The position numbers and the translations under genes are program-made. From an uncultured Pelagibacteraceae bacterium (GTDB taxonomy: Bacteria; Pseudomonadota; Alphaproteobacteria; Pelagibacterales; Pelagibacteraceae), in NCBI GenBank assembly GCA_902636075.1, contig CACPQM010000001.1, forward strand, positions 146,186 through 210,185: a stretch of 64,000 nt of DNA, in the 5' to 3' direction. The notes under the pieces are model-generated. The model ran no database searches and had not been told where the DNA came from. It was given only the letters and a program-made list of their open reading frames with translations. Below, piece after piece: positions 2,394 to 23,968 of this stretch (within the stretch, counting starts at the first letter, position 1; every line of letters starts with the position of its first letter).

Positions 2394-3650
2394 ATGCAAA
2401 AATACTCTGTTTTTAGCCTCATTAAAAATGCATTCTCAGATCATCAGAATTGGGAAGTAGCATGGAAAGATCCAACTCCTAAAAAAGAATATGATGTGAT
2501 TATCATAGGTGGCGGGGGTCATGGTTTAGCAACTGCATACTACTTAGCTAAGGAGCACAATATTACAAATGTAGCTATCATTGAAAAAGGCTGGATAGGT
2601 GGAGGTAATGTTGGAAGAAACACTACAATAATTAGATCAAACTATATGCATGATGACAATGCTTTGTTCAGTGAATTTGGTATGGATTTGTGGAGAAAGA
2701 TGAGTCAGGATTTGAATTACAATGTCATGTTTTCTCCAAGAGGAATAATAAATCTTGCCCATTCAGATGCACAAATGAATGCGTACTCTAGAAGAGGAAA
2801 TTCAATGCGATTAAATGGGATTGATGCAGTTTTATTAAATAGGGAAGAGGTTCAAAAAAAAATTCCAATGGCAGATTTTTCTGACAATGTGCGATTTCCA
2901 ATTTTTGGAGGTTTGATGCAACCAAGTGCTGGGACTGCTAGACACGATGCTGTTGCTTGGGGATATGCAAGACAAGCAGACTCAATGGGTGTTGACATAA
3001 TTCAAAATTGTGAAGTTACAGGATTTGATGTTACTAACGGAAAAATAGTTGGTGTAAGAACTTCCAGAGGAGATATCAAAGCGAAAAAAGTTGGTTTGTG
3101 TGTTGCAGGTAGCACAAATATTTTAGCAGAAATGTTAAATATGACACTACCAATTGAAACTCATCTCCTTCAAGCATGTGTATCAGAACCTGTAAAACCT
3201 TTGCTTGACCATGTAGTTACATTTGGTGCAGGTCACTTTTATTGTAGTCAATCAGATAAGGGAGAGATGGTTATGGGTGGAGACTTGGACGGATACAATA
3301 GTTACTCACAAAGAGGAAATTTACCAACACTCCAACACGTATTGACTGAAGGTATTGCAATGTTTCCATTTCTAAGCAAATTGAAAATGCTTAGAACTTG
3401 GGGTGGAATTATGGATATGTCAATGGACGGTTCACCAATTATTGATAAAACACATATTGATGGCTTATACTTAAATTGTGGCTGGTGTTATGGTGGATTT
3501 AAAGCTACTCCTGCTTCAGGTTGGACTTTTGCACATACAATTGCGCAAGATAGAGTTCATGAATTAAACTCAGGTTACAGTTTAAATAGATTTAATACTG
3601 GTGATTTAATTGATGAAAAAGGTCTTGGTACCAAAACTTGGATATCTTAA
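2394..3650 (+). CDS. soxB: sarcosine oxidase subunit beta
   Basis: This flavoprotein subunit of heterotetrameric sarcosine oxidase oxidises sarcosine to glycine, with the methyl carbon passed to THF. The dinucleotide fold GGGGHG is at residues 39-44. The segment around TARHDAVAW carries His184, which aligns with the histidine that covalently holds FMN in characterised beta subunits. The C-terminal PIIDKT and CGWCYGGFK motifs are typical of the family. The length of 418 residues is normal. It is the first gene of soxBDAG, directly abutting soxD with no spacer, so translation is probably coupled. Confidence 0.96.
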   Translation: MQKYSVFSLIKNAFSDHQNWEVAWKDPTPKKEYDVIIIGGGGHGLATAYYLAKEHNITNVAIIEKGWIGGGNVGRNTTIIRSNYMHDDNALFSEFGMDLWRKMSQDLNYNVMFSPRGIINLAHSDAQMNAYSRRGNSMRLNGIDAVLLNREEVQKKIPMADFSDNVRFPIFGGLMQPSAGTARHDAVAWGYARQADSMGVDIIQNCEVTGFDVTNGKIVGVRTSRGDIKAKKVGLCVAGSTNILAEMLNMTLPIETHLLQACVSEPVKPLLDHVVTFGAGHFYCSQSDKGEMVMGGDLDGYNSYSQRGNLPTLQHVLTEGIAMFPFLSKLKMLRTWGGIMDMSMDGSPIIDKTHIDGLYLNCGWCYGGFKATPASGWTFAHTIAQDRVHELNSGYSLNRFNTGDLIDEKGLGTKTWIS

Positions 3651-3920
3651 ATGCTCTATATATTCTGTCCACATTGTGGATCAAGATCACAGAATGAGTT
3701 TGCTTATGGCGGAGATGCAACAGTAAAACGACCAGAGCTTAACAAGGAAATTAGTGACCAAGAGTGGAATAATTTTGTTTATTTAAGAAAAAGTCCTAGA
3801 GGAAAACACCTAGAGTTATGGCACCATATATCTGGCTGCAGACAATGGATAAAAGTTGAAAGAGATACTTCAACTCACGAGATTTTTAAAACCTATAAAG
3901 CAGATGAACTGACTGAATAA
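3651..3920 (+). CDS. soxD: sarcosine oxidase subunit delta
   Basis: This 89-residue zinc-binding subunit of heterotetrameric sarcosine oxidase starts at the base following the soxB stop. The zinc ligands are visible as CPHCG near the N-terminus and as HHISGC near residue 60, the usual C-x2-C and H-x-C pattern. The subunit is structural, sits against the alpha subunit and has no known activity alone. It overlaps the soxA start by one base. Confidence 0.95.
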   Translation: MLYIFCPHCGSRSQNEFAYGGDATVKRPELNKEISDQEWNNFVYLRKSPRGKHLELWHHISGCRQWIKVERDTSTHEIFKTYKADELTE

Positions 3921-6916
3921 TGTCACAAGATTTTAGATTAGATAACATTGGAATGGTAAATAGAAATAAAAAAATTTCTTTTACATTTAATGGTAAAAAA
4001 TATTTTGGTTATGAAGGAGATACTATTGCTTCTGCTTTAATAGCAAATGGAGTGCATCTTGTTGGGAGAAGTTTTAAATATCATAGACCTAGAGGTTTCT
4101 TTGGAGTTGGTGTTGATGAACCTTATGCAATTTTACAATTAGAAAGAAATAATGAGAGAGATCCTAATATTAGAGCTACTGAACAGGAGATTTTTGAAGG
4201 TTTAGAGGTTAAAAGTGTAAATTGTTGGCCTAGTGTAAACTTTGATATTGGAGCAATTAATAATTTCTTAAAAATGTTTTTTCCAGCCGGGTTTTATTAT
4301 AAAACTTTTATGTGGCCACCAAGTTTCTGGTACAAAATTTATGAACCTTTCATTAGAATGGCAGCAGGTTTTGGAGAAGCATCTATCAAACATGATAAAG
4401 AAAGATACGAGCATAAATATGAATATTGTGATTTATTAATCACTGGATCAGGACCTTCAGGTTTAGCTAGTGCATATGCAGCAGCAAAAAATGGTGCGCG
4501 TGTAATTTTAGCTGAAGACAAACCTAGGTACGGAGGTAGCTTGTTAACTAGTGATGTAAATATTGGTAATCAAACTGGTGCTGAATGGTCAGAGAAAATA
4601 ATTACTGAGTTAAAGTCAATGTCAAATGTGATTGTAAAAAATAGATCACAAGTATTTGGTTATTATGATCATAATATGTTGGTAATGTCGGAACGAATAA
4701 GTGATCACTTGCCTAAAACCCAAAAATATTTACCTAAACAACGTTTGTGGTACATAAGAGCAAAAGAAGTTCTTATTTCATCAGGTTCAATTGAAAGACC
4801 ATTAGTATTTGGTAACAATGATACCCCAGGTGTAATGTTATCTTCGGCAGCTAAAGAATACATAAAGGTCTATGGAGTTTTAGTTGGGAAAAAACCTTTG
4901 ATATTTACTAATAATGACAGTGGATATGAAACCGCTATAGAGTTCAAAAAAAATGGTGTTAATCCATTAATTTTAGACACTAGAAAAGAACCATCTTCTG
5001 ACATTATTACTGAAGCAAAAAATTTAGGAATTGAAATTAAATATTCTTATGTGGTAGTTGCTGCTAAAGGATACAAAAAAGTTAAATCAGCTGATATTGC
5101 AAAAATATCTGATAATAAAAAAGATTTATCAAATATAGAAAATATTGAATGTGATTGTATTTGTGTTTCAGGGTTTTGGACGCCATCAATTCATTTAGCA
5201 TCACAATCTGGAAATAAATCTGAATTTAATGAGAAAATAGATGCATTCATTCCAAAAAAATCTAAACAGAAAGAAAATACTATTGGTTCAGCAAACGGTA
5301 AATTTACTTTAGAGGAAACTATTAATGAAGCATTCAATAAAGGATACGAAGTCTCAAACAAAATAACTGAAAATAATAATAAAGTTTCTGTTCCAACAGT
5401 AGTTGAAAAAAAATCTACAGAGCATGACAAGTTTTGGTGTGTTCCATTACCAAAAGGTAAATCTTACAAAAGATTTTTAGATTTTCAAAACGATGTGGCT
5501 GTATCAGATATAGAGTTGGCATTAAGAGAAGGTTTTAGATCAATCGAACATGTAAAAAGATATACCACCCTTGGAATGGCCACAGATCAAGGAAAAACAA
5601 GTAATCTTAATGGTTTACAATTAGTGTCAGACATTGAAAATAAAGTTGTACCACAAGTTGGCCACACAACATTTAGGCCACCTTATACACCTGTTTCAAT
5701 TGGAGCAATTGTGGGAAGAGAAGTTGGCAAGCATTCTAAACCAACAAGAAAATCACCAATGCACGAGTGGCACGAAAAAAATAATGCAGTATTTGTTGAT
5801 GCTGGAGTTTGGTTGAGACCAAGATACTATAAGCAAGGAAATGAAACATTATTTGAAGCCTCAAAAAGAGAAGCAAAAAATGTAAGAAAAAATGTAGGTG
5901 TATGTGATGTAACTACTTTAGGAAAAATAGATGTTAAAGGTCCCGATGCTGCAGAATTTTTAAATAGAGTTTATACTAATGCATGGCTTAAACTTCCAGT
6001 TGGTAAAGCAAGATATGGAGTGATGTTAAGAGAAGATGGAATTGTTATGGATGACGGAACAACAACAAGAATTTCTGAAAATCATTACCACATGACAACT
6101 ACAACAGCTCAGGCGGCCAATGTCCTATCTCATTTAGAATATTATTTGCAACTAGTTTGGCCAGAATTAAATGTTAATGTGGTTTCAACAACAGAGCAGT
6201 GGGCTGGTGCTGCAATAGCAGGCCCAAATTCAAGAGCATTACTAATGAAATTATTTCCAAATACCGATGTATCTAATGAAGGTCTCCCATTTATGGGTTA
6301 CAAAGAGGCTGATTTATTTGGTATTCCGGCAAAAATTTATAGAATTTCATTTTCAGGAGAACTTGCTTATGAAGTTAACGTGGAATCAGACTTTGGTAAT
6401 TTCATGTGGGAAAAAATTATTGAAGTTGGTAAAGAATTTCAAATACAGCCATATGGAACTGAGGCACTATCTACTTTAAGGATAGAAATGGGTCACGTTG
6501 CTGGCTCTGAGCTTGATGGTAGAACAATTCCTCATGATGCATCGCTTGAAGGTTTAGTAAGTAAGAAAAAAGACTTTATTGGTAAAAGATCTTTAAGCAG
6601 ATCAGCTTTTACAAAACCAGATAGAGAAAAAATAGTAGGTGTTGTTCCATTAGACAAAACAACAAGTATTCCTGAAGGCTCATATATTGTTAAAGACCCT
6701 AAAGCAAAACTTCCAAACCCTAAATTAGGTCATGTCTCAGCATCATGTTGGAGTGTTGAGTATGATAATCCATTCTCACTTGCGATAATTAAAGATGGTA
6801 AAAATATGATAGGACAAAAGCTATTTGCTATGTCACCTTTAAAAAACAAAACTATTCCTGTGGAAATTGTTTCATCGCATTATGTTGATCCTGAAGGAAA
6901 GAGAGTAAGAGCATGA
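3920..6916 (+). CDS. soxA: sarcosine oxidase subunit alpha
   Basis: The 998 residues match the usual alpha-subunit length. Domain order is a ferredoxin-like N-terminal fold (roughly 15-100), an NAD-binding flavoprotein fold with GSGPSG near residue 176, and a C-terminal GcvT-type folate domain from about 600 to the end (LRIEMGHVAG and SFSGELAYEV segments). The folate domain captures the methyl carbon as 5,10-methylene-THF in the partner complex. The start overlaps soxD by 1 bp (TAATG) and the end overlaps soxG by 4 bp, so the operon is translationally coupled. No disrupted domain was seen. Confidence 0.96.
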   Translation: MSQDFRLDNIGMVNRNKKISFTFNGKKYFGYEGDTIASALIANGVHLVGRSFKYHRPRGFFGVGVDEPYAILQLERNNERDPNIRATEQEIFEGLEVKSVNCWPSVNFDIGAINNFLKMFFPAGFYYKTFMWPPSFWYKIYEPFIRMAAGFGEASIKHDKERYEHKYEYCDLLITGSGPSGLASAYAAAKNGARVILAEDKPRYGGSLLTSDVNIGNQTGAEWSEKIITELKSMSNVIVKNRSQVFGYYDHNMLVMSERISDHLPKTQKYLPKQRLWYIRAKEVLISSGSIERPLVFGNNDTPGVMLSSAAKEYIKVYGVLVGKKPLIFTNNDSGYETAIEFKKNGVNPLILDTRKEPSSDIITEAKNLGIEIKYSYVVVAAKGYKKVKSADIAKISDNKKDLSNIENIECDCICVSGFWTPSIHLASQSGNKSEFNEKIDAFIPKKSKQKENTIGSANGKFTLEETINEAFNKGYEVSNKITENNNKVSVPTVVEKKSTEHDKFWCVPLPKGKSYKRFLDFQNDVAVSDIELALREGFRSIEHVKRYTTLGMATDQGKTSNLNGLQLVSDIENKVVPQVGHTTFRPPYTPVSIGAIVGREVGKHSKPTRKSPMHEWHEKNNAVFVDAGVWLRPRYYKQGNETLFEASKREAKNVRKNVGVCDVTTLGKIDVKGPDAAEFLNRVYTNAWLKLPVGKARYGVMLREDGIVMDDGTTTRISENHYHMTTTTAQAANVLSHLEYYLQLVWPELNVNVVSTTEQWAGAAIAGPNSRALLMKLFPNTDVSNEGLPFMGYKEADLFGIPAKIYRISFSGELAYEVNVESDFGNFMWEKIIEVGKEFQIQPYGTEALSTLRIEMGHVAGSELDGRTIPHDASLEGLVSKKKDFIGKRSLSRSAFTKPDREKIVGVVPLDKTTSIPEGSYIVKDPKAKLPNPKLGHVSASCWSVEYDNPFSLAIIKDGKNMIGQKLFAMSPLKNKTIPVEIVSSHYVDPEGKRVRA

Positions 6917-7500
6917 CGGTGATTTCTGCATTACAAAATGTCCATATCGAGGGGTCATTTGGAAACTTTGAAAATAAATCTGAAAATGAATTATTAAAAA
7001 TTAAAGAATTAAAAAATTTATTAATTGTTCAAATAGTTCAATATAAAAATTCTTCAATTAAAATTGACGATATAAATTTTAACAATTTAAAATTTGTAAA
7101 TCAGGCACAAAAAGTAGTTTCAAATGAAAATATAAGAGTTTTGTGGAACTCACCAAATAATTGGCTTTTAGTTTCTCATGAAAAAGAATTGTTAAAAGAA
7201 ATTTACAGTACTTATAATGAAAATGATTTTGCTGTTACAGACCTTTCTCATTCAAAAGCAACAATCGAATTAGAAGGACCATACGTAAAAGAAGTTTTAA
7301 AAAAAGGATGTCCTTTTAATTTTAACATTTTAACAAAAAATATGAGTATTAACTCAGCTTATAATGGAATTTCTTTTATAGTTGATATGGTTGAAAATGA
7401 ACCAGAAAAAGCAAGAATTTTTTCTCTAAGGAGTTTTGGAGAATCTCTATACCATTCTATCACTGATGCTTCTTTAGAATTTGGTTATAAGTGTAATTAG
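6913..7500 (+). CDS. soxG: sarcosine oxidase subunit gamma
   Basis: This 195-residue last gene of the soxBDAG operon overlaps soxA by 4 bp (ATGA). The family is poorly conserved; visible marks are NNWLLVSHE near residue 77 and DLSHSKATIELEGP near residue 112, both typical of the small GcvT-like gamma subunit. Its role is structural, near the FAD/FMN interface. Position and order make the call firm despite the weak sequence conservation. Confidence 0.92.
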   Translation: MTVISALQNVHIEGSFGNFENKSENELLKIKELKNLLIVQIVQYKNSSIKIDDINFNNLKFVNQAQKVVSNENIRVLWNSPNNWLLVSHEKELLKEIYSTYNENDFAVTDLSHSKATIELEGPYVKEVLKKGCPFNFNILTKNMSINSAYNGISFIVDMVENEPEKARIFSLRSFGESLYHSITDASLEFGYKCN

Positions 7501-7503
7501 TTA

Positions 7504-9117
7504 TTATTCCTCAGTTTTAAATCTAGATTTCTGAATAAATAAAACAAATAGCACTGGTATAATTAAGGTAATAATTGTAACTGTAATTAATAACAATCCT
7601 AGCTCAGAATAGTCTGCTGTAGTTAAAATTGCGTTTGTAACCTTATCTTTTACTTCTCTTGTGATTGTAAAGATTTCATTAAGATATTTTGTTAATAAAG
7701 CACTTGCAGACAAAGCTAAATTAGTGAATGAGGCAAAAACCGCAAAAAAAGTTGCTTTTAAATGTGAAGGAGCATTCTTAGCAATCCAAGCCAAAAGTGG
7801 AATCATAGATATTTGACCCAATGGAGATTCTAATGCTGTATTAATTATTGCTATAAATTTTGCATCAACAATTCCATTTGTTAACGAAGAAGTCCAGTTA
7901 TGAAATCCATAATACATTCCAACACTTGGCAAAAATAATATTGATCCAGCAATTGATAAAATTATGATTATTTTAGCAATAGAATTTTTTGCCATAAATG
8001 GTCTAAGCATTATTATTCCAACTAATGTTAGGATAGAAGCTAGTAAAGACAGTATTGAAAAAAATTGTTCATTAAATTGTAGTTCATCAATTTCAAACCA
8101 AGATAAGCCCGGTCCAGGTCCAGGCATGGCTCTAAATATAAAAATAATTATAGCAGTTCCAACTATAGTAAATCTTAACTTTTCAGGTAACTCTTTAATA
8201 AGTTTGTTCATAAGAAATAAAATGATTAACATAGAACCTAAAAAAACAATTTCTTGTGCAAAAGGTAATCCTAACGAACCGACACTCAATGTGAAAATTA
8301 CAAAAATTAAACTACCACCTAGTATCCACCAATTTACTTTTGTTTGCTCATGATTAAAATTATCTTCTTCACCTGATAGACCTTGTCTAATTAAAATGTT
8401 TTTCTTTTTATTTTTTAAATAAGCAGCAAAAATAACACCTAAAATTGAAACCACTGGTATTATTAATGCATAAAGATATATCGAGCCGTATAATTGTATT
8501 TTTTCAGCCTGTTCAAGATCATCTACCCCCTTAAATAATATCACATTGGCAAGAGCAACCAACACTGTCCCACCTATAATTGCAAATCTTCCAAGTGTTT
8601 GCATCGTCGTATGCATAATTTTAACTTGATCTGCTGTAAATGTTTCTCCGTTCTCATTTATTAAAGGCACAGCTTCGACTGTCATTGCATCAGCAACAAC
8701 ATCTTGAACTACATATCCAATAGGAGCTAAAAGAACACTTATTACAAACCAAGTTTCAACTTTTAAATAAGATGACATTTGCTCTGTATGAATTATTAGT
8801 CCGTACATTATTAATAAACTTACACCAATTAATGAGGCACCGACGTAAACCATGTAATTCTTTTTATTCCATATTAAATCTACCAAATGCCCTAGTGGCA
8901 TTTTTAAAGCCCAAGGTATTCCTGCCCAGAAACCTAATCCTGCAAGAAATGCTGCAGATAAATTTAAGTAATCTTTTACAAAGAAAGTACCTACTATTCC
9001 TGTAAGTCCAGATATACCCGCTGCCACGTAAATCATTAACGGAGGTAAATAAGACAATTTAAATTGTCTTCCTAAATCAAACAGTGTTGAGTCTATAAAT
9101 TGAATGATTCTGTCCAT
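7504..9117 (-). CDS. MFS-fold transporter, BT1 (folate-biopterin)-like
   Basis: This 537-residue polytopic membrane protein has about 12-14 hydrophobic segments. The segment APIGYVVQDVVADAMTVEA near residues 132-150 resembles the conserved DVVAD region of the BT1 family, and PWALKMPLGHLVDLIW near residue 68 resembles the first-loop motif of that superfamily. BT1 proteins carry folates or pterins, which would suit the neighbouring folate-dependent sarcosine oxidase, but substrate is inference and a general MFS permease cannot be ruled out. A small direct repeat encodes PGPGPG near residue 330. It is the last gene of a three-gene minus-strand run with the small protein at 9124 and the GNAT gene, and converges on soxG. 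Confidence 0.6.
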   Translation of the reverse strand: MDRIIQFIDSTLFDLGRQFKLSYLPPLMIYVAAGISGLTGIVGTFFVKDYLNLSAAFLAGLGFWAGIPWALKMPLGHLVDLIWNKKNYMVYVGASLIGVSLLIMYGLIIHTEQMSSYLKVETWFVISVLLAPIGYVVQDVVADAMTVEAVPLINENGETFTADQVKIMHTTMQTLGRFAIIGGTVLVALANVILFKGVDDLEQAEKIQLYGSIYLYALIIPVVSILGVIFAAYLKNKKKNILIRQGLSGEEDNFNHEQTKVNWWILGGSLIFVIFTLSVGSLGLPFAQEIVFLGSMLIILFLMNKLIKELPEKLRFTIVGTAIIIFIFRAMPGPGPGLSWFEIDELQFNEQFFSILSLLASILTLVGIIMLRPFMAKNSIAKIIIILSIAGSILFLPSVGMYYGFHNWTSSLTNGIVDAKFIAIINTALESPLGQISMIPLLAWIAKNAPSHLKATFFAVFASFTNLALSASALLTKYLNEIFTITREVKDKVTNAILTTADYSELGLLLITVTIITLIIPVLFVLFIQKSRFKTEE

Positions 9118-10698: not shown

Positions 10699-11742
10699 TT
10701 ATTTTTCAATAATTGTTAGATGTCCCATTTTCCTTTTTGCTTTTACTTGTTTTTTTAAATAATCATAAAAAAACTCATTCTCTTTAAAAGTTTTATTTCT
10801 ATAAATTGTTATATCATCACCAATGAGATTAATCATTTGAGCATTATATATTTTTTTTGTGTCGATTTTTTTTAAACCACAAACAGCTCTAATATGATTT
10901 TCAAATTGACTAACATTATGTGAGTTTATTGTTAGATGACCAGAATTATGAACTCTAGGTGCAATTTCATTAACATATAAGTTTTCATTTTTATCAATAA
11001 AAAACTCAACACATAAGGTTCCAATATAATCTAGTTCTTCAACAATTTGTTTTGCCCATTCTTTAGATTTTACCTTTATTGTTTCTGAAATTTCAGCAGG
11101 AATTTTTGAATGTTTCAAAATTTGATCTTCATGAACATTCTCAATCGGTTCATATATTTCATATTTTTGATTGCCAAATCTACATATAACAATTGAAATT
11201 TCTTTTTTAAGATTAATAAACTTTTCTAAAATATATTCTTTAGTAAAATCAATGTCTTCATTTATGTCAATAAAACTGTTTAATTTATATTGACCTTTAC
11301 CATCATATCCAAGAGTAGTAGTTTTAAGTAGCCCAGGCAAAAGGTTTTCATTATCTTTTATTTCATCCTTATTTTTAATTAAAGCATAGTTAGTCGTTCT
11401 AATATTGTTTTTATTTAAAAAATCCTTTTCGGTTAATCTATTTTGGATTAAACTATTTATTTCTGGTTTGGGTAAAACACTCTTTGATTTATTGATTTCA
11501 TTTAATATATCAAAGGGTATATTTTCAAATTCATAAGTAACTAAATCAACGCTATTAACAAATTCTGTTATGATTTTTGTATCATTATAGTTTCCATATA
11601 TGAACTTATTTGCAAAATTTTTGGCAGGCGCATCTGGATCATCACTAAGTACTACAGTTTTTATATCTATCTTTTTAGCAGCTTCAGAAAGCATACTACC
11701 TAGCTGACCACCTCCAATTATTCCTAAAACTGGCTGGTTCAT
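10699..11742 (-). CDS. purK: 5-(carboxyamino)imidazole ribonucleotide synthase
   Basis: This ATP-grasp enzyme converts AIR, bicarbonate and ATP into N5-CAIR in purine synthesis. The N-terminus GIIGGGQLGSML is the PurK signature; TTLGYDGKGQ and EIAPRVHNSGH are the ATP-grasp lid and metal-binding regions. The 347 residues are normal. It begins one base after the purE stop, so purEK is a two-gene operon in the usual order, read on the minus strand. Confidence 0.96.
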   Translation of the reverse strand: MNQPVLGIIGGGQLGSMLSEAAKKIDIKTVVLSDDPDAPAKNFANKFIYGNYNDTKIITEFVNSVDLVTYEFENIPFDILNEINKSKSVLPKPEINSLIQNRLTEKDFLNKNNIRTTNYALIKNKDEIKDNENLLPGLLKTTTLGYDGKGQYKLNSFIDINEDIDFTKEYILEKFINLKKEISIVICRFGNQKYEIYEPIENVHEDQILKHSKIPAEISETIKVKSKEWAKQIVEELDYIGTLCVEFFIDKNENLYVNEIAPRVHNSGHLTINSHNVSQFENHIRAVCGLKKIDTKKIYNAQMINLIGDDITIYRNKTFKENEFFYDYLKKQVKAKRKMGHLTIIEK

Positions 11743-12237
11743 TTATTTTGGTTTTTTTTTAACAGATTTTGATTGTTTAGATCGCCACTTATTCAGATTA
11801 TTTTTAACACTCTTATCAAAGTTAGAAATAATTGATGCGGCATACAAAGCTGCATTTATTGCCCCATCTTTACCAATTGCTACTGTTCCAACAGGTATAC
11901 CTTTTGGCATTTGAGCTATTGATAGTAAACTATCTAGACCTTTTAATTTTTTACTTTCGATTGGCACTCCTATTACTGGAATTCTTGTTAGAGATGCAAT
12001 CATTCCTGGTAAATGGGCTGACCCGCCAGCTCCAGCAATTATTACAGAAATTTTATTGTTTTCTGCAGATTTTGCATACTTAAACATACGTTCTGGAGTT
12101 CTGTGAGCTGAAACTATATTTGATTCGTAATTAATTTTAAGCAATTTAAGAATTTTTTCACAAAATTTCATGGTTGAGTAATCAGAATTACTTCCCATAA
12201 CAATTGATACCTTGTGACTATATTTTTTGTTTTTCAC
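11743..12237 (-). CDS. purE: N5-CAIR mutase
   Basis: The 164-residue protein is a class I PurE that rearranges N5-CAIR to CAIR. The signatures [23 protein letters not shown] and [12 protein letters not shown] surround the active site. It is followed directly by purK. A lysine-rich tail of about 20 residues extends beyond the core. It is divergent from the 12325 operon across 87 bp. Confidence 0.96.
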
Positions 12238-12324
12238 TATACGAATTTGAATTAATATAGATTAACATATTCTTTAAATTTAAACTAGTCGACAAATTAT
12301 TTTATACTTATATTGTCTTTAAAT
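12238..12324. promoter_or_regulatory. divergent purE / M19-operon intergenic region
   Basis: This 87-bp gap lies between outward-facing genes and is expected to hold both promoters. The sequence is plain and AT-rich. I saw no hairpin or operator. Confidence 0.4.
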
Positions 12325-13293
12325 ATGAACTATCGAATAGATAATCTTCAATATTGTAACTGGTCTAGAGATATTTTTCTCATCAATCGGGAAGCTGGAT
12401 TAAATGCAGTGCACGTTACTCTAGTATATCACGAAGATTATGACGAGTTTTTACAAAGAGTTAAAGAGTGGGATAAATTTTTTGAAGAAAATTCAGATTT
12501 AATTTTTTTGGGAAAAACATTCGAAGATATTACAAAAGCACAATCTGATAACAAAACAGCAATTTTTTTTGGTTTTCAAAATTGTTCCCCAATCGAGGAT
12601 GATATAAATTTAATAGAGAAAGTCCATGAGCATGGTTGTAGATTTATGCAACTTACTTATAATAATCAATCTCTTCTAGCCACAGGATGTTATGAAAAAA
12701 ATGATTCTGGAGTCACAAATTTTGGAAGAGAAGCAATTAAAGAGATGAATAGGGTAGGAATAGTTGTAGACATGTCTCATTCAGCAGAAAAAAGCACTTT
12801 AGATGCGATCGAAATAAGCGAAAAACCAATTGCAATTACCCATGCAAATCCTTCTTTCTGGCATCAAGCTTTAAGAAATAAATCAGATTTCTTGTTAAAG
12901 AAACTTTCTGAAAGTGGAGGTATCTTAGGTTTATCATTATATTCTCATCATTTAAAAGATGGAACAAATTGTAAATTAGAAAGTTTTTGTGAAATGGTTG
13001 CTAAAACAGCAGAAATAATGGAAGTAAAAAATATTGGTATTGGGTCAGATCTATGTTTGAACCAACCTGACAGTGTTGTTGAATGGATGAGAAACGGAAC
13101 TTGGTCTAAAAGTACAAATTATGGAGAGGGAAGTAAAAAAAAACCTGGATTTCCAAAACAACCTGACTGGTTTTTGGATGCTAGAGGGTTTAATAATTTA
13201 GAAAGTGGATTAAAAAAAATTGGTTTTAATAAGCAAGAAGTAGAAGGAATTTTAGGAAATAATTGGTTTAATTTTTATAAAGGAATTAATTAA
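12325..13293 (+). CDS. atypical M19 (renal dipeptidase) family protein
   Basis: The start chosen is the ATG at 12325; a TTG four codons upstream is also in frame. The 322-residue protein fits peptidase family M19: MSHSAEKS and ITHANPSF match the two histidine metal sites, and GIGSDLC matches the late aspartate region. The N-terminal H-x-D pair of classical members is not visible (LQYCNW occupies that area), and the usual bridging-glutamate region reads FGFQNCSPIED. The two-metal site is therefore probably altered and the substrate may not be a dipeptide. It overlaps the next gene by one base and starts a four-gene operon. Confidence 0.8.
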   Translation: MNYRIDNLQYCNWSRDIFLINREAGLNAVHVTLVYHEDYDEFLQRVKEWDKFFEENSDLIFLGKTFEDITKAQSDNKTAIFFGFQNCSPIEDDINLIEKVHEHGCRFMQLTYNNQSLLATGCYEKNDSGVTNFGREAIKEMNRVGIVVDMSHSAEKSTLDAIEISEKPIAITHANPSFWHQALRNKSDFLLKKLSESGGILGLSLYSHHLKDGTNCKLESFCEMVAKTAEIMEVKNIGIGSDLCLNQPDSVVEWMRNGTWSKSTNYGEGSKKKPGFPKQPDWFLDARGFNNLESGLKKIGFNKQEVEGILGNNWFNFYKGIN

Positions 13294-14948
13294 TGGAAAT
13301 AAGATTAAGAGATCCAAAATTTTTGATGAAACTATCTAAATTGGGGTCTTTTCATCAATCAAAATTATCATTTCTAAGATCTTTTTTATCTGAATTTAAA
13401 GATTGGAAGTATAGCCGAGATTTATTTCAACTAAATGACAAAGGACATGGTAGAGCAGTTTACTCATTTACAAAAAACAAAAGAACATATTCTCTCATTT
13501 GTTTTGCTAGTGAAATCAATGATGATGAAAGATCAGATAGAGTAATAGCCACTAAGTGGGATGCTGCTTTTACCTTATTTGATGGAATTCCATCAAAAGA
13601 AGACATAGATAGACTTAACAATAATGTTCCAAAACAAGAGGTTGGAAGACTTTCGTATAAGGAATTAACGTTATCAAGAGCTAACAAGTCAGTAAGAGTT
13701 TTCGACCATGTGGTTGACAGTTTATCAAATGGAGATCAACCTAATAAAGAAATTTTATCAAAGGTTGGGTATTTATATAGAACAACAGCAGTTTATGGAT
13801 CAGGAAAATTTGGTTTAGCAGACAGGTTTAGAATTAAAAATAGAGAGGAAATCAGAGGACCTTTTAGATTAGAGATGATGCTAGTATATCTCGTTAGACA
13901 ATTTACATTTGATCAGGTTAATCATATTGCAAAAAATAAAAATCCAAAACTAGCAGTAGAATTAGATCCTTCAATCAGCAGGAACTTAGGAATAGGAAAT
14001 TCTACTGGCCTTGGCATGGCTCCTTTTATTGTTAATCATCCTACTTTGTTGAATAATTGGATACATGCAAGAGAAACTGCTTTGAAACAAATAAGAGAAA
14101 TAGAGCGAGTTTCAAAAAATGAGATTGATATTTTTTATAATTGCCTAATTAAATCTTTAAAGAATATAACCAGTTGGCACACAGATAGCGAATTTCAAAA
14201 AGAAAAAATCAAAGGTTTAATTGTCGATTTAAAAAAGTTTATTAAATTTATGAAAGAAGATTTTAAATTTCAAAATTCATATCAATTTAATCAAATTTAC
14301 AACTGGTCAGAGGAAAATTTAAATGATGAATGTATAGAATATATTGTATCTATGATGATGGAGCCATTTGATGACATAGTTAATCCATTGATTACTCAAA
14401 TGAGTTCTGATGAGGAAGAACATTTTAACATTCCTGTTGATAGAACTATTGAAGATTTAAGAAACATATTAGAAAATAAATATTCTGAAATACTTAAAAT
14501 TGATTTTTTAAAAGACGAAAATAATCAAAACTTTTGGTTTATATCAAAAAATAAAGAAGAGCCTAGAATAGGAGACAGATATATTGATGAGGGATCTGAT
14601 TTAGAACAGCCATTAGCAATAGCAAGAGACATAAATAAACTTTATGATGCTGTATTTACAAAAAAAAATAGTTCTAAAATTGGTAAATTTTTAAAAGATA
14701 ATAATCATTTAAGACACGTTGTCAGAAGAGCATTTATTGCAGAAAAGTTTCCTTATTCAGAAATCCAAGACAATACAATTGGGTCCAAACTAGTTCCAAT
14801 TGATATGTTAAGATTAAAATTATCATTTTTTGGAGCTATAAAGTTTGATCCTAGATCAGATAAATGGTTGCGTATTTGCATGTTCCAAGGAGCACCTTTG
14901 CCTTCAGAATTGCGAAATTTTGATGATAAATGGATTTATAAATCATAA
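13293..14948 (+). CDS. conserved hypothetical protein, 551 aa
   Basis: I do not recognise this family. It is a large soluble protein without signal peptide or membrane segments. Visible features are a glycine-rich stretch GIGNSTGLGMAPF near residue 230, followed by HPTLLNNWIHARE, a middle helical charged region, and a C-terminal region with RHVVRRAFIAEKFPY. The glycine-rich segment could bind a phosphate or cofactor, but this is inference. It overlaps the M19-like gene by 1 bp and is 4 bp from the DUF3726-like gene, so a joint function is likely. Confidence 0.85.
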   Translation: MEIRLRDPKFLMKLSKLGSFHQSKLSFLRSFLSEFKDWKYSRDLFQLNDKGHGRAVYSFTKNKRTYSLICFASEINDDERSDRVIATKWDAAFTLFDGIPSKEDIDRLNNNVPKQEVGRLSYKELTLSRANKSVRVFDHVVDSLSNGDQPNKEILSKVGYLYRTTAVYGSGKFGLADRFRIKNREEIRGPFRLEMMLVYLVRQFTFDQVNHIAKNKNPKLAVELDPSISRNLGIGNSTGLGMAPFIVNHPTLLNNWIHARETALKQIREIERVSKNEIDIFYNCLIKSLKNITSWHTDSEFQKEKIKGLIVDLKKFIKFMKEDFKFQNSYQFNQIYNWSEENLNDECIEYIVSMMMEPFDDIVNPLITQMSSDEEEHFNIPVDRTIEDLRNILENKYSEILKIDFLKDENNQNFWFISKNKEEPRIGDRYIDEGSDLEQPLAIARDINKLYDAVFTKKNSSKIGKFLKDNNHLRHVVRRAFIAEKFPYSEIQDNTIGSKLVPIDMLRLKLSFFGAIKFDPRSDKWLRICMFQGAPLPSELRNFDDKWIYKS

Positions 14949-14952
14949 ATAA

Positions 14953-15561
14953 ATGAGAAGCTTTAGTGAAATAGAAGTAACTACAAAAAAAGCATCTAAA
15001 GCTATTGGTTTTTCTTGGGGAGTATCAGAGGAGGTTGGAAAAAATATTCGATTACTAGAAATGTTTGGACTACCAGGTCTTAAAAATTTAAACCAATACT
15101 ACAAAATTTATAAAATCAGTAATTTTGAAAATATTGATGAAATATCGGTCTCAAATACTCCAAAGACTTTTTATTGTCCTATATCATCTGGATTAAATTT
15201 TTTTGATCAATCTTCATCAATATCTAAATTCAATGAAATTGAAATTAATAAGATTGCTTTTCCACTTATATTTTTATCATTTGTAAGCAGAACTTCAGAA
15301 ATTATTGGTAAGAGAATTTTTTTAAAGATGGATGATAAAGAATTTTTATTTAATTTTAACGAGTCTATTTATTCAAACTATCTAACAGGAGATGTATTGG
15401 AAAAATCAGATAAAATTAACTTAAAATTTTTAGATAATAAGAACAGTTTTACTGAAGATGATTGGTCTGAAATTTATAATTTATCTCTAAAAACTTACGT
15501 CGATGAAAGTGATAAATCGAGGGAACGAACAGCAGGAGCTGGATTAACAGATAATGACTAA
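14953..15561 (+). CDS. DUF3726-like protein
   Basis: The 202-residue protein opens with SFSEIEVTTKKASKAIGFSWG and ends with RTAGAGLTDND, both resembling the DUF3726 family as I recall it; the function of that family is unknown. No catalytic motif is evident. The conserved tail makes truncation unlikely. It lies 4 bp after the 551-aa gene and its stop overlaps the start of a 55-aa four-cysteine gene by 8 bp, arguing for strict co-expression. Confidence 0.75.
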   Translation: MRSFSEIEVTTKKASKAIGFSWGVSEEVGKNIRLLEMFGLPGLKNLNQYYKIYKISNFENIDEISVSNTPKTFYCPISSGLNFFDQSSSISKFNEIEINKIAFPLIFLSFVSRTSEIIGKRIFLKMDDKEFLFNFNESIYSNYLTGDVLEKSDKINLKFLDNKNSFTEDDWSEIYNLSLKTYVDESDKSRERTAGAGLTDND

Positions 15562-15721
15562 AGAATATGATGCAGAATTAAATAAGAATTTAGAAGCAGA
15601 TTTAAATGATATTTGTGAAGAGTGTAAAAAAGAAGATGAAAGTGTAACTCAAAATTTATTCCTTACTGGTTTTAAAATATGCAAATCTTGCAGAACATCT
15701 AAAACTGTTTTTCCTTTTTAG
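15554..15721 (+). CDS. small four-cysteine (zinc-ribbon-like) protein, 55 aa
   Basis: The ATG at 15554 lies inside the end of the DUF3726-like gene (8-bp overlap ATGACTAA) and the frame runs to the TAG at 15719-15721. The product has two CxxC pairs, CEEC near residue 21 and CKSC near residue 43, spaced like a small zinc ribbon or iron site. The N-terminal half is acidic, and the tail is KTVFPF. The tight overlap and cysteine spacing argue for a real gene. Its 3' end overlaps the convergent Yip1-like gene by 4 bp. Function unknown; a metal-binding partner of the operon is plausible. Confidence 0.7.
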   Translation: MTKEYDAELNKNLEADLNDICEECKKEDESVTQNLFLTGFKICKSCRTSKTVFPF

Positions 15722-16302: not shown

Positions 16303-17661
16303 TTAACCTTTTACAACTTCTCTTGTATTTGCGTTGTAAGATTCTTTAAATGGTATATCTACAATTACTGCATCAACAGGTTTACCTGGAGTTTCAGAAT
16401 ATATCTCTGGCAAATGTACCTTAAACTTAGATCCTACCTTTCCTTTTGGAAATCCATTTGCGTTCAATGTACCATCAAATGGCACATAGCCCATAGCAAT
16501 GTTCTGTTTTTTTTCAGGATGATACCAAGGAGAAGTAATAAAGCCTATAGGTTCTCCACCACCCTCATCAGAAATTAGCCAAAAGTCAGGAGCATATTCC
16601 TCAATTGGTTTTCCACCTAATTCAAGACCAACTAATTGAAGTTTGTATGGTTTGTGACCTGCTTTTAAATCAGATTTCATTTTTTCAAGAGCTTTCTTAC
16701 CTACGTAATCTGCCTTCTTGTTCCATTCTCCTTTTCCAGATAATGATACTTGATAACCTAAATTACATTGAAAAGGATTATGTTGATTGTCCATGTCTTG
16801 ACCCCAAGAAAGAATTCCAGCTTGAATTCTTCTATGGTGCGCAGGGGCAATAACCATTAGGCTATGTTTTTTTCCTGCTTCAAGAACTGCATTCCACATA
16901 TCCTCAGCATATAAAGTACATTCTCTTAAATAAATTTCGTAACCAGCTTCACCTGAAAATCCTGATTGAGATATCACACAACTTCTACCACCGATTTTAG
17001 CCTCTGCTAAACCGTAGAATGGCATATTGTCAAAATCAACTTGATCTCCACATAAATCTTTCATTAATGCTTTAGATTTTGGCCCCTGTATCTGAACTGG
17101 GCTTACATCTATCTCATCAATTTCTACGTTAAATCTCTCGTCAGCATTTACGCCTTGTAAATAAAGACCTATATCACTATCAGATAAACTGAACCAAAAT
17201 TCGTCTTTTGATAATCTTAAAAGTATGGGATCATTTAATACGCCGCCATATGCGTTGCAAAGAATTACATATCTTGCTCTCATTGGAGAGATTTTTGTAG
17301 CATCTCTTGTAATTACATAGTCTACAAATTTTTCTGCATCAGGACCCTTCACTCTAATTTGTCTTTCAACAGCAACATTCCACATTGTTACATGATTAAC
17401 AATTGCATCATACTCGACCATTGCACCACCATCTTCAGGTTTTACATAGCCTCTTGGGTGATAAATACGATTATATACAGTTGCTCTCCAACAACCTGCT
17501 TTCATTGATAAATGCCAGTAGGGTGATTTTCTTACACGAGTTGAAATCAACATTTCTACTTTTGTAGGTCCGCTTTGTCTTAAATTATAAGGCACTTTTC
17601 TATCAGATTGATCTACTGATGTTACGTGTCTTAGCTTACTATAGTCAAATTCTTTAGACAT
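16303..17661 (-). CDS. DmdA-like THF-dependent methyltransferase (GcvT superfamily)
   Basis: This 452-residue protein belongs to the GcvT/DmdA folate-binding superfamily. Segments such as VTMWNVAVERQIRVKGPDA, GGVLNDPILLRLS, VSPVQIQGPKS and QAGILSWGQDMDNQHNP correspond closely, from memory, to the same positions in Pelagibacter DMSP demethylase DmdA, but this protein is about 80 residues longer, mostly at the N-terminus and in a loop near residue 330. The likely reaction is methyl transfer from an onium or amine donor to THF. It overlaps the MetF-like gene by 8 bp and follows a quaternary-amine transporter. The donor could be DMSP, betaine, or an O-methyl compound as in LigM; it is not resolved by sequence. 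Confidence 0.8.
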   Translation of the reverse strand: MSKEFDYSKLRHVTSVDQSDRKVPYNLRQSGPTKVEMLISTRVRKSPYWHLSMKAGCWRATVYNRIYHPRGYVKPEDGGAMVEYDAIVNHVTMWNVAVERQIRVKGPDAEKFVDYVITRDATKISPMRARYVILCNAYGGVLNDPILLRLSKDEFWFSLSDSDIGLYLQGVNADERFNVEIDEIDVSPVQIQGPKSKALMKDLCGDQVDFDNMPFYGLAEAKIGGRSCVISQSGFSGEAGYEIYLRECTLYAEDMWNAVLEAGKKHSLMVIAPAHHRRIQAGILSWGQDMDNQHNPFQCNLGYQVSLSGKGEWNKKADYVGKKALEKMKSDLKAGHKPYKLQLVGLELGGKPIEEYAPDFWLISDEGGGEPIGFITSPWYHPEKKQNIAMGYVPFDGTLNANGFPKGKVGSKFKVHLPEIYSETPGKPVDAVIVDIPFKESYNANTREVVKG

Positions 17662-18382
17662 AGTTATTCTCCTTCAACCACTTGTTTGTTTCCTTCAAGC
17701 CGCCGAATGTATAAATGTGAAAATAATCAGTATGCGATTTAACTTTCCCAATTAGATCATTAGGGTCTTTAGGTTTCAATAAATCTAATGCCTTAGTAAA
17801 ATTAGATTTAAGAAAGTTAATGGAATTTTTTGCCCCTACAATATTTGCAAACTTTATTAAGCTTGAAATTTTCATGGGCCCAGTTATTCCAACATGAACT
17901 GGTATCGTTTGTTTAGAAATGAAATCAACGATAGGCTGAGAATCTAATAACCATTGGGTTACAATATAATCAGCGTAAGGCTTTTTATCCATCATTGCTT
18001 TTTCTAATTCTGAATCGGATATATCAGGACTACCCTCTGGATGTCCAGCAATTCCAATCTTAATTCCATCAAATAATCCTGTCTCTAATATTTGATATGA
18101 GCTGTCAAATTTTCCAACTGGGTCTCTACTTCCACCTATAGCCAATATCTGTTTCACACCTAAATCTTTACATCTCGAAATGTAGTCTTTAAGTTCTTCT
18201 TCATTATTTATTGATCTAGCTGGGAAGTGGGGTACTGGATTAAATCCTTTCTTAACCAAGTCACCAGATTTATCCGCAGTTTCTTTATAATCTCCTCCAG
18301 GTAGCATAGTCACATAAACATCTTTAACTTCAGGTAAAGTATCAAGATCTGTGTGAGGTCCAATTTCTAATGAAAAATTCAT
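17654..18382 (-). CDS. short MetF-like methylenetetrahydrofolate reductase family protein
   Basis: At 242 residues this is shorter than a typical MetF (about 290). The N-terminal FSLEIGP matches the SFEFFPP region with the catalytic Glu, and QILAIGGSRDP matches the folate/FAD contact region. VHVGITGPMKISSLIKFA is another MTHFR-family segment. MetF interconverts methyl-THF and methylene-THF; next to a THF methyltransferase it would probably oxidise the methyl-THF formed. Start overlaps none upstream; the end overlaps the DmdA-like start by 8 bp. FAD binding in so short a version is uncertain. Confidence 0.8.
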   Translation of the reverse strand: MNFSLEIGPHTDLDTLPEVKDVYVTMLPGGDYKETADKSGDLVKKGFNPVPHFPARSINNEEELKDYISRCKDLGVKQILAIGGSRDPVGKFDSSYQILETGLFDGIKIGIAGHPEGSPDISDSELEKAMMDKKPYADYIVTQWLLDSQPIVDFISKQTIPVHVGITGPMKISSLIKFANIVGAKNSINFLKSNFTKALDLLKPKDPNDLIGKVKSHTDYFHIYTFGGLKETNKWLKENNYV

Positions 18383-21562: not shown

Positions 21563-23968
21563 ATGCAAAATCATGCAAAAGTAGTCATCATAGGTGGCGG
21601 CGTAGTAGGCTGTTCCATTCTTTATCATTTATCAAAGTTTGGTTTAAAAGATTGTATTCTTCTTGAAAGAAATGAACTCACATCTGGATCCTCTTGGCAT
21701 GCAGCTGGAAATGTACATGTGATTTCATCTGACCCAAATATTTCTAGAATGATGGCTTATACAATCGGATTGTACAAAGAAATTGAAAAAGAGTCTGGCC
21801 ATTCAGTTGGATTCAAATCAAGTGGGGGATTTTATTTGGCTTCAAATGATGTTTGGGCTGATTATTTAAAAAGAGAGAGGTCTAAAGCAAGATATATGGG
21901 TCTTGACCAAGAGTTTGTTTCTTTAGAGGAAGTAAAAAAGAAAAATCCTTTAATTGATCCATCAAGATACCTTCTAGCATTGTGGGATCCAATTGATGGG
22001 GAAGTAGACCCATCAGGTGTGACTTATGCTTTTGCTAAAGCAGCAAAAGTTCATGGTGGAAAATATTATACACATACAGTTGTAAAAGACACAAAACAAA
22101 AAGAGGATGGAAGTTGGGATGTGATAACTGACAAGGGCAATATAAAAGCTGAAATAGTTATTAACGCTGGAGGTTTATGGGCAAGAGAAGTTGGACAGCT
22201 TGCAGGAATTAATCTACCAGTTCAACCAATGGAGCATCATTACTTAATCACTGAAGCTATTCCAGAAATTGAAGCAATGGGTGATCAAAGAATTCCTATT
22301 GGAACTGATTTTGAAGGTAACATTTATTTTAGACAAGAAGGAAAGGGAATGCTTCTTGGAACTTATGAACCAAAATCAACACCATGGAAGGTTGAAGGAA
22401 CACCTATGAATTTTGGTCATGAGTTATTAGAACCAAAACTAGATAATATTCAAGATAGATTAGCAATAGGTTTTGAAAGAATGCCAGCGTTAGAAAAGGC
22501 AGGAATTAAAAATATTGTAAATGGGCCTTTTACTTTTGGACCTGATGGATCACCATTAATTGGTCCTGTTCCCGGAATGAAAAATTATTGGGTAGCAGTG
22601 GGTGTAATGGCTGGTTTTTGTCAAGGAGGAGGAGTTGGAAAATGTATTGCTGAATGGATAATTGACGGAGAACCATCAATAGATGTTTGGGCAATGGATG
22701 TTGCAAGATTTGGAGATTATGCATCACCTCAATACGGAACAATTAAATCTTCTGAAAATTATGAACGAAGATTTATTATGACATTTCCAAATGAAACTTT
22801 ACCAAAAGGAAGAAAACAAAAAACAACAGCTCTTTATGATCGGTTTGTAGAACAAGGAGCGGTTATGGGAGACAGCTTTGGTTTAGAAAATGTTTTGTGG
22901 TTTGCAAATGATAAAAAAGATGCATACGAAGAGCCAACTATAAAAAGATCTAGATCGCATAATTATGTCTCCAAAGAAGTTATTAATGTAAGAGAAAATG
23001 TTGGTTTTATTGAAGTTGCTAATTTTTCAAAACATCAATTTAAAGGAAAAGATGCAAGAAAATTTTTAGATCATATTATGGCAGGTAAGCTTCCAAATCC
23101 TGGAAGAATATCGTTATCTCCAATGTTATCTTATAGAGGAAAATTATGTGGCGATCTTACAGTTTCATGCCTTGATGAAAACGAATTTATGGTTTTTGGT
23201 TCAGGTGCAGCTCAAGAAATGCATAGACGTTGGTTTGAAAGCCATTTAGATAAATTTAATGTTGAATATAAAAATAGATCAGATGAATTTCATGGAATAT
23301 CTATAGCAGGACCTAATTCGAGAAAAGTTTTAGAAAAAATAGTTAGAGACGATGTATCTAATGAAAAATTTAGATTTAGAGACTCAAGAAGAATGTTTGT
23401 TGGAGGTGTTCCAGCAATTATAAACCGAATTTCATTCACGGGTGAACTTGGTTATGAAATATATGTTGCGCCACATTTCCAAATTAAACTTTATGAGGAG
23501 TTAATGGAGGCGGGAAAAGAATTTGGTATTAAACCTTTTGGTGGAAGAGCTTTAATGTCTATGAGACTAGAGAAAAATTGGGGTGCGTGGACTTTAGACT
23601 ATCGACCTGATTTTACTGCTAAAGAAACTGGATTAGAAAGTTTCATTAATTGGAACAAAGAATTTATTGGTAAAGAAAAAGCTAAACAAGACAATAGCTC
23701 GAATAGATTAGTTCCTTTAATAATTCAAACAAACGACATAGATGTCACAAACAATGAAGCAGTAATGAAGGGAGATAATAGCATTGGGTATATAACTTCA
23801 GGTGGATTTGCTCATTTTGTAAATAAAAGTGTTGCTTTTTCATATCTAGATCAAAAAAATTTATCATCTGAAGATGGAATACAAGTAGAAATTAATGGTG
23901 ATTTATTCAATTGTTCAATTATCAAAGAACCACTTTATGATCCAAGTGGAGAAAAAATGAGAGGGTAA
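21563..23968 (+). CDS. dimethylglycine dehydrogenase-like FAD/folate oxidoreductase, copy 1
   Basis: The 801-residue protein has an N-terminal DAO-type flavin domain (GGGVVG at 11-16) and a C-terminal GcvT folate domain. His46 in SSWHAAG aligns with the histidine that covalently binds FAD in dimethylglycine and sarcosine dehydrogenases. SFTGELGYEIYV and LRLEKNWGAWTLDYRPD (MRLEKN) belong to the folate domain. It oxidatively removes an N-methyl group to methylene-THF and passes electrons to ETF. Located immediately after BHMT, dimethylglycine is the most likely substrate of the three paralogues here. It overlaps the methyltransferase gene by 1 bp. Confidence 0.88.
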   Translation: MQNHAKVVIIGGGVVGCSILYHLSKFGLKDCILLERNELTSGSSWHAAGNVHVISSDPNISRMMAYTIGLYKEIEKESGHSVGFKSSGGFYLASNDVWADYLKRERSKARYMGLDQEFVSLEEVKKKNPLIDPSRYLLALWDPIDGEVDPSGVTYAFAKAAKVHGGKYYTHTVVKDTKQKEDGSWDVITDKGNIKAEIVINAGGLWAREVGQLAGINLPVQPMEHHYLITEAIPEIEAMGDQRIPIGTDFEGNIYFRQEGKGMLLGTYEPKSTPWKVEGTPMNFGHELLEPKLDNIQDRLAIGFERMPALEKAGIKNIVNGPFTFGPDGSPLIGPVPGMKNYWVAVGVMAGFCQGGGVGKCIAEWIIDGEPSIDVWAMDVARFGDYASPQYGTIKSSENYERRFIMTFPNETLPKGRKQKTTALYDRFVEQGAVMGDSFGLENVLWFANDKKDAYEEPTIKRSRSHNYVSKEVINVRENVGFIEVANFSKHQFKGKDARKFLDHIMAGKLPNPGRISLSPMLSYRGKLCGDLTVSCLDENEFMVFGSGAAQEMHRRWFESHLDKFNVEYKNRSDEFHGISIAGPNSRKVLEKIVRDDVSNEKFRFRDSRRMFVGGVPAIINRISFTGELGYEIYVAPHFQIKLYEELMEAGKEFGIKPFGGRALMSMRLEKNWGAWTLDYRPDFTAKETGLESFINWNKEFIGKEKAKQDNSSNRLVPLIIQTNDIDVTNNEAVMKGDNSIGYITSGGFAHFVNKSVAFSYLDQKNLSSEDGIQVEINGDLFNCSIIKEPLYDPSGEKMRG

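Follow-up and report, generated by a model that had tools for sequence, protein, structure and literature searches.

Here, we describe an operon of four genes at 12325-15721 in a 64,000-nucleotide stretch of DNA from an uncultured Pelagibacteraceae bacterium (contig CACPQM010000001.1, positions 146,186 to 210,185; the whole stretch is called the window below), whose genome is that of a SAR11 group member. It is a real, widely shared operon, most likely catabolic, in a pared-down SAR11 form, and most likely part of the breakdown of homarine (N-methylpicolinate). The genes code for an M19-family amidohydrolase-like protein, a protein of 551 residues (the 551-aa protein), a DUF3726 protein and a 55-residue protein with four cysteines. 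With a confidence that lies only a little above even, we read them as the SAR11 form of a widespread operon degrading homarine to N-methylglutamate, homarine being the predicted substrate. Within this operon, the 551-aa protein together with the DUF3726 protein is likely to be the ring-opening enzyme.

Conserved linkage of the genes

The four open reading frames (ORFs) are present in the ORF calls of the window exactly as an earlier note on this DNA had described them, with a 1-bp overlap, a 4-bp gap and an 8-bp overlap between successive genes. That note took the coupling to mean that the genes work together, and the conservation of their linkage agrees with it. Using protein profiles and measuring outward from the 551-aa protein, not from M19 or DUF3726, we found that 67 of 75 SAR11 loci have both of these genes at most 4 kb away; the other eight are cut short by a contig end, which is reached within 173 bases on the side where the trio is incomplete. 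The 551-aa protein occurs in 53 of 385 sampled alphaproteobacterial genomes. In the class sample drawn from these (47 loci from 45 of the 53 genomes, two of the loci from the window's own genus), M19 lies within the same distance in 41 loci, DUF3726 in 45 and both in 40. As to the loci without M19 in range, L127 and L139 have the 551-aa gene beside a DUF3726-like ORF, L168 has M19 at about 4.6 kb, and the ORF listing is unreliable for L137, L146 and L169. Homologues scattered apart in most genomes, which would have spoken against cooperation, were thus not what we saw when starting from the 551-aa protein. Since the first three genes are kept together into other phyla, a chance grouping can be ruled out. 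The 551-aa protein and DUF3726 are the tightest unit of the module, which suggests that they are two subunits of one enzyme.

Relatives of the 551-aa protein are very common in sequence data: at least 7999 were found in a large protein collection, every scored candidate being a relative, while phage records gave no match at E 1e-5. Labels of Pelagibacteraceae, Pelagibacterales or Pelagibacter are carried by 75 of the 76 loci found with this protein, and the remaining one is from Aquimarina.

Which genes accompany the trio in its relatives? The Aquimarina genes run regulator, aldehyde dehydrogenase (ALDH), M19, BCCT transporter, 551, DUF3726, where the regulator is IclR-like by eye and the rest are also backed by sequence matches. 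Phaeobacter inhibens DSM 17395 carries two paralogous copies on one plasmid, one arranged as ALDH-M19-BCCT-551-DUF3726 and the other without BCCT. The same arrangement, followed by an Ldh-family oxidoreductase, is found in Ruegeria sp. TM1040, the one match to the 551-aa protein among Ruegeria plasmid records. An Ldh-family gene is also present in Mesorhizobium and Aminobacter loci, and the Aminobacter one adjoins a glycine betaine ABC transporter. Mesorhizobium sp. 131-2-1 (L080:11947-14391) encodes the 551 homologue and DUF3726 fused into one annotated protein of 814 residues. In the halophilic archaeon Natrinema we found ALDH, 551, a DUF3726 counterpart and BCCT, and M19 was not detected there. 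On pSymB of Sinorhizobium meliloti (L082:9716-13390), a divergent 551 homologue (~25%), a small protein in the place of DUF3726 and M19 stand in a row, which adjoins an ABC transporter of another kind, as read from the ORFs. Of the 47 loci in the class sample, 14 have a specific ALDH (identity of 50% or more, within 5 kb), 15 have Ldh (45% or more) and 23 have at least one of the two; LysR was present in 7, and BCCT and a betaine-binding protein in 6 loci each. TM1040 and several class-sample loci hold a fuller gene set. Because these neighbours are ALDH, an Ldh reductase, a regulator and betaine-type transporters, the operon layout looks like one for the catabolism of a transported, betaine-like small molecule.

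The four proteins

The 551-aa protein resembles nothing described in the collections that we searched. Neither it nor the 55-aa protein has a Pfam match at E 0.1, the 551-aa protein belongs to no NCBIfam family, and profile searches with members of its family against solved structures and Pfam returned chance-level rows only. Its predicted structure is confident (predicted local distance difference test score, pLDDT, of 84.8), and a fold search with this model among solved structures gave no usable match; START/Bet v 1-like rows in that search were rejected as chance, at a probability of at most 0.04. The glycine-rich stretch to which the earlier note had drawn attention, GIGNSTGLGMAP, spans residues 233-244, and all twelve residues are invariant in 64 sequences. 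In the model, two glycine-rich loops (169-176 and 238-243) are predicted poorly.

The M19 protein is a clear family member, with 228 bits to Pfam Peptidase_M19 (PF01244) against a cut-off of 26 (counted from its ATG it has 322 residues, and four more if translation began at a TTG lying 12 bp further 5'). The roles of the HxD pair and of the bridging Glu as metal ligands are known from renal dipeptidase. As had been remarked before, the N-terminal HxD is absent here and Gln85 replaces the bridging Glu, so that the usual make-up of the binuclear metal site is not found in this protein. Gln85, Tyr112, His152, His173, Arg184 and Asp242 are each kept in 113 of 113 aligned relatives, namely the strong M19 matches of 72 SAR11 loci and of 41 loci from the class sample. 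Hydrolase activity is not assured, since half of the usual metal ligands are missing.

The third protein scores 69.5 bits with Pfam DUF3726, in line with its earlier assignment as DUF3726-like; our text search of the literature for DUF3726 found no paper. A structure-based comparison revealed an Ldh_2-like fold over residues 1-163, and the prediction supports the view that DUF3726 is a shrunken Ldh_2-fold protein. A sequence match to Ldh_2 (PF02615) was obtained for one of ten DUF3726 members, which is not that of the window, and when profiles of DUF3726 and of the operon Ldh were compared, the resemblance was weak (E 0.0015 over 41 columns, probability 16.5%); the claim of kinship is for this reason based on the fold match. 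Haloarchaeal counterparts of DUF3726, 317 residues long, match PF02615 (L083:11668-12621, P0241, P0243, P0246) and are apparent intermediates between Ldh_2 and DUF3726.

A small ORF with two CxxC pairs, the feature by which the fourth gene had been described, lies 3' of DUF3726 in 68 of 70 SAR11 loci and in one of 45 class-sample loci, which comes from a same-genus genome. The 55-aa four-cysteine protein was seen only in SAR11 and is a private addition of this group. The earlier statement that none of the four has a known role holds for the unmatched 551-aa and 55-aa proteins; it does not hold in full for M19, whose subgroup has a solved structure (2i5g), nor for DUF3726 with its reduced Ldh_2 fold.

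Table 1. Features of the window discussed in the text, with proposed roles.
Feature	Position	Strand	Basis
M19-family amidohydrolase-like protein, 322 aa, in which the HxD and bridging-Glu ligands are missing; proposed to hydrolyse an N-formyl intermediate	12325..13293	+	Pfam PF01244; nearest solved structure 2i5g; residue counts over 113 relatives; function inferred
551-aa protein, unrecognised fold; proposed catalytic subunit of a ring-opening enzyme	13293..14948	+	No Pfam/NCBIfam family; model pLDDT 84.8; no acceptable solved-structure match; function inferred
DUF3726 protein, 202 aa, with a shrunken Ldh_2 fold; proposed to pair as a subunit with the 551-aa protein	14953..15561	+	Pfam DUF3726; fold resemblance
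55-aa protein, two CxxC pairs, seen only in SAR11	15554..15721	+	Like ORF in 68/70 SAR11 loci
soxB-D-A-G type operon, candidate N-methylglutamate dehydrogenase acting after the module	2394..7500 (2394-3650, 3651-3920, 3920-6916, 6913-7500)	+	TIGR01373 and TIGR01372 above cut-off; upstream in 56/59 SAR11 loci

A proposed route from homarine to N-methylglutamate

We propose that the route begins with the 551-aa protein and its DUF3726 partner, which would cleave the pyridinium ring between C5 and C6 and leave a C5 semialdehyde bearing an N-formyl-N-methylamino group. Its aldehyde would then be oxidised to the acid by an aldehyde dehydrogenase, and its formyl group released as formate by the M19 amidohydrolase. 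Reduction of the C=N formed in this way, by an Ldh-family reductase, would yield N-methylglutamate, which a soxBDAG-type enzyme would demethylate to glutamate and methylene-tetrahydrofolate. In SAR11, the ALDH and Ldh steps would be carried out by enzymes coded elsewhere in the genome. We further suggest, with somewhat less than even confidence, that the 551/DUF3726 pair represents a new class of enzymes that open the ring of N-methylpyridinium compounds. Its catalytic subunit would have an unseen fold and no conserved His/Cys cluster, and would work with a degenerate subunit of the Ldh type, the conserved GAG...DND tail of which may extend into the catalytic subunit's active site; the SAR11 operon would be pared to its core, plus its own small four-cysteine protein.

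The clue to the product comes from the accompanying enzymes. Delta1-piperideine-2-carboxylate reductase reduces the C=N in 2-imino acids and makes N-methyl amino acids, and such an enzyme (1wtj) is the best match of a profile of three operon Ldh sequences among solved structures, with 219 bits against 155 for the next family member. The top curated models for the TM1040 ALDH are 2,5-dioxovalerate dehydrogenase (476 bits, cut-off 750) and alpha-ketoglutaric semialdehyde dehydrogenase (471 bits, cut-off 770). Together, these resemblances hint at a five-carbon skeleton that carries nitrogen on C2 and an acid group on C5, namely N-methylglutamate; the hint is not firm, because the nearest relatives also include betaine aldehyde and L-sulfolactate dehydrogenases. 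If N-methylglutamate is the product, homarine is in turn the substrate to expect: opened between C5 and C6, it should on chemical grounds give the C5 skeleton after C6 is lost as formate. A 2026 study that cites a homarine-pathway paper states that Mgd (N-methylglutamate dehydrogenase) takes part in homarine catabolism (PMC13390433). Our literature searches on homarine genes found this citing paper and no gene list, and those on trigonelline genes, on Pelagibacter with membrane dipeptidase and on the S. meliloti genes gave nothing decisive; the one on N-methylglutamate dehydrogenase genes turned up PMC3160333.

The last step could fall to the operon upstream of the module (Table 1), which matches the curated models TIGR01373 and TIGR01372 above their cut-offs. 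In SAR11 loci with at least 9.9 kb of upstream sequence, soxA/soxB-like genes stand upstream in 56 of 59; beyond the window's genus, such genes (at least 40% identity) lie near the module in three of 45 class-sample loci (L142, L158, L164). The window genome holds a second, paralogous soxBDAG-type operon (G000:C12, L190) as well as mgsABC-like (11080-14257) and gmaS-like (7342-8667) genes (L191, G000:C1:110000-129900), which by their resemblance suggest an N-methylglutamate route for methylamine. The alpha subunits of both SAR11 operons score higher to a Phyllobacterium operon beside mgs/gmaS-like genes than to a Paracoccus operon taken as sarcosine oxidase.

Several observations weigh against this route. 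The TM1040 ALDH scores far below both curated cut-offs, the best solved-structure matches of the operon ALDH are betaine aldehyde dehydrogenases (304 bits), and the best curated model for the operon Ldh is L-sulfolactate dehydrogenase (182 bits, cut-off 500). The missing metal ligands of M19 count here too. In the SAR11 window, the genes next to the module include no ALDH, Ldh, regulator or BCCT; the window genome yields six ALDH matches (the best-scoring 33% identical) and two Ldh matches (the best-scoring 33%), and a search for BCCT gave no match in this genome, which is 86% complete, so that the absence is not proof. Even in the class sample, neither ALDH nor Ldh was detected in half of the 47 loci. 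The tree of alpha subunits does not place the linked soxBDAG operon as N-methylglutamate dehydrogenase, as long branches meet, and the Phaeobacter and TM1040 neighbours group with presumed sarcosine oxidase; only one reference in this tree is assigned as sarcosine oxidase, and this by context. The two paralogous copies of P. inhibens may differ in substrate, growth of R. pomeroyi was poorer on homarine than on trigonelline according to PMC8269262 (although PMC12817926 reports that homarine is drawn down rapidly), and these genes are only presumed to be those of the published homarine operon.

Could the operon be of the same ring-opening or betaine-catabolic kind but serve for a different compound, for example trigonelline, a betaine of the proline type or some other N-methylated heterocycle, with the SAR11, Phaeobacter and Sinorhizobium versions perhaps each having a substrate of its own? 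We regard this as a serious but clearly less probable alternative. It would accommodate the paralogous P. inhibens copies, the divergent S. meliloti version (~25%) beside its different kind of ABC transporter, the Natrinema version without detected M19, near DHDPS and hydantoinase/oxoprolinase genes, the likeness of the operon ALDH to betaine aldehyde dehydrogenases and the better growth of R. pomeroyi on trigonelline (PMC8269262, same passage). Trigonelline, however, bears its carboxyl at C3, and by the expected chemistry its opening would not yield the C5 2-imino-acid skeleton to which the Ldh and ALDH resemblances point.

The surroundings of the module in the window, with the soxBDAG operon, a betaine transporter-like binding protein, dimethylglycine-dehydrogenase-like stretches and a GcvT-like gene nearby, would also fit an accessory set for glycine betaine or one-carbon metabolism, for instance a cofactor- or methyl-handling helper of the neighbouring demethylases. 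This is improbable, given that the trio comes with its own ALDH or Ldh in 23 of 47 class-sample loci and with its own regulator and transporter in several named relatives. The earlier note had spoken of a small metabolic or protein-modifying module: the conserved linkage and the kind of neighbours favour the metabolic half, and no neighbour supports the other. A protein- or peptide-modifying system, which the name dipeptidase for M19 proteins and the unrecognised 551-aa protein might bring to mind, is very improbable indeed; the neighbours in annotated relatives are small-molecule catabolic genes and betaine-type transporters, and no precursor peptide was noticed, although no search was aimed at one.

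Other genes of the window were noted alongside. A 452-aa GcvT-family protein (16303-17661) scores best with dimethylsulfoniopropionate demethylase (239 bits, under the cut-off of 410), and beside it lies a gene for a 242-aa protein (17654-18382) with a weak MTHFR match, just above the Pfam cut-off and far below that of NCBIfam. Three stretches (22850-23965, 32055-33227 and 45404-46456) are 26-28% identical to sarcosine oxidase alpha, pointing to several putative dimethylglycine-dehydrogenase-like proteins in one window.

If the operon does serve the breakdown of homarine, SAR11 carries a minimal homarine operon, and the step to look into is that of the 551/DUF3726 pair. Homarine was reported to account for as much as 3% of the particulate carbon of the surface ocean (PMC8269262; the authors later corrected that concentrations had been overstated). 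The same assignment would bear on a question raised in 2011, when Sun et al. described two such SAR11 operons, one of them presumably N-methylglutamate dehydrogenase, and, in the passage concerned, left undecided which one (PMC3160333); the operon near the module would be the first candidate.

Relation to known systems

How new is the module? The claim that it is an undescribed system has become doubtful: the published homarine pathway probably contains these genes, which lowers the novelty, while the 551/DUF3726 pair and the SAR11 layout may still be new. No description of a homarine ring-opening enzyme was found in the literature searched, the 2026 pathway paper lying outside that search.

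Among solved structures, the closest relative of the M19 protein is 2i5g, an 'amidohydrolase' of the Protein Data Bank (260 bits with profile A3), which has the Gln in the place of the bridging Glu in common with it and is a Pseudomonas aeruginosa protein coded in the vicinity of glycine betaine genes. DUF3726 differs from the Ldh_2 family (type II malate/lactate dehydrogenases, DpkA) in its size, 202 residues against about 335, and in the SHG segment, which has a catalytic role in Ldh_2 enzymes: S47-H48-G49 is invariant in three aligned operon Ldh proteins and absent at the corresponding place in DUF3726.

The later steps of the trigonelline route are catalysed by an aldehyde dehydrogenase and a hydrolase. 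Its first step, by the TgnA/TgnB oxygenase, is the ring opening of an N-methylpyridinium carboxylate, as we propose it here, and in a passage of the same study the Tgn system is judged unlikely to act on homarine (PMC8269262). Unlike that oxygenase system, the 551-aa protein matches no oxygenase family of Pfam or NCBIfam.

The nearest comparison is with the homarine operon itself. It was published in Nat Microbiol 2026, 11:1531, reportedly as homABCDER, five structural genes and a regulator with N-methylglutamate as product, and it reportedly occurs in SAR11, in Rhodobacterales/roseobacters and in soil bacteria. The conserved set found here likewise consists of five genes (551, DUF3726, M19, ALDH and Ldh) plus LysR, and may be the same one. 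Compared with the operon as reported, the SAR11 window holds three of the five genes in one operon (M19, 551 and DUF3726), has no adjacent regulator and carries an additional gene for the 55-aa four-cysteine protein.

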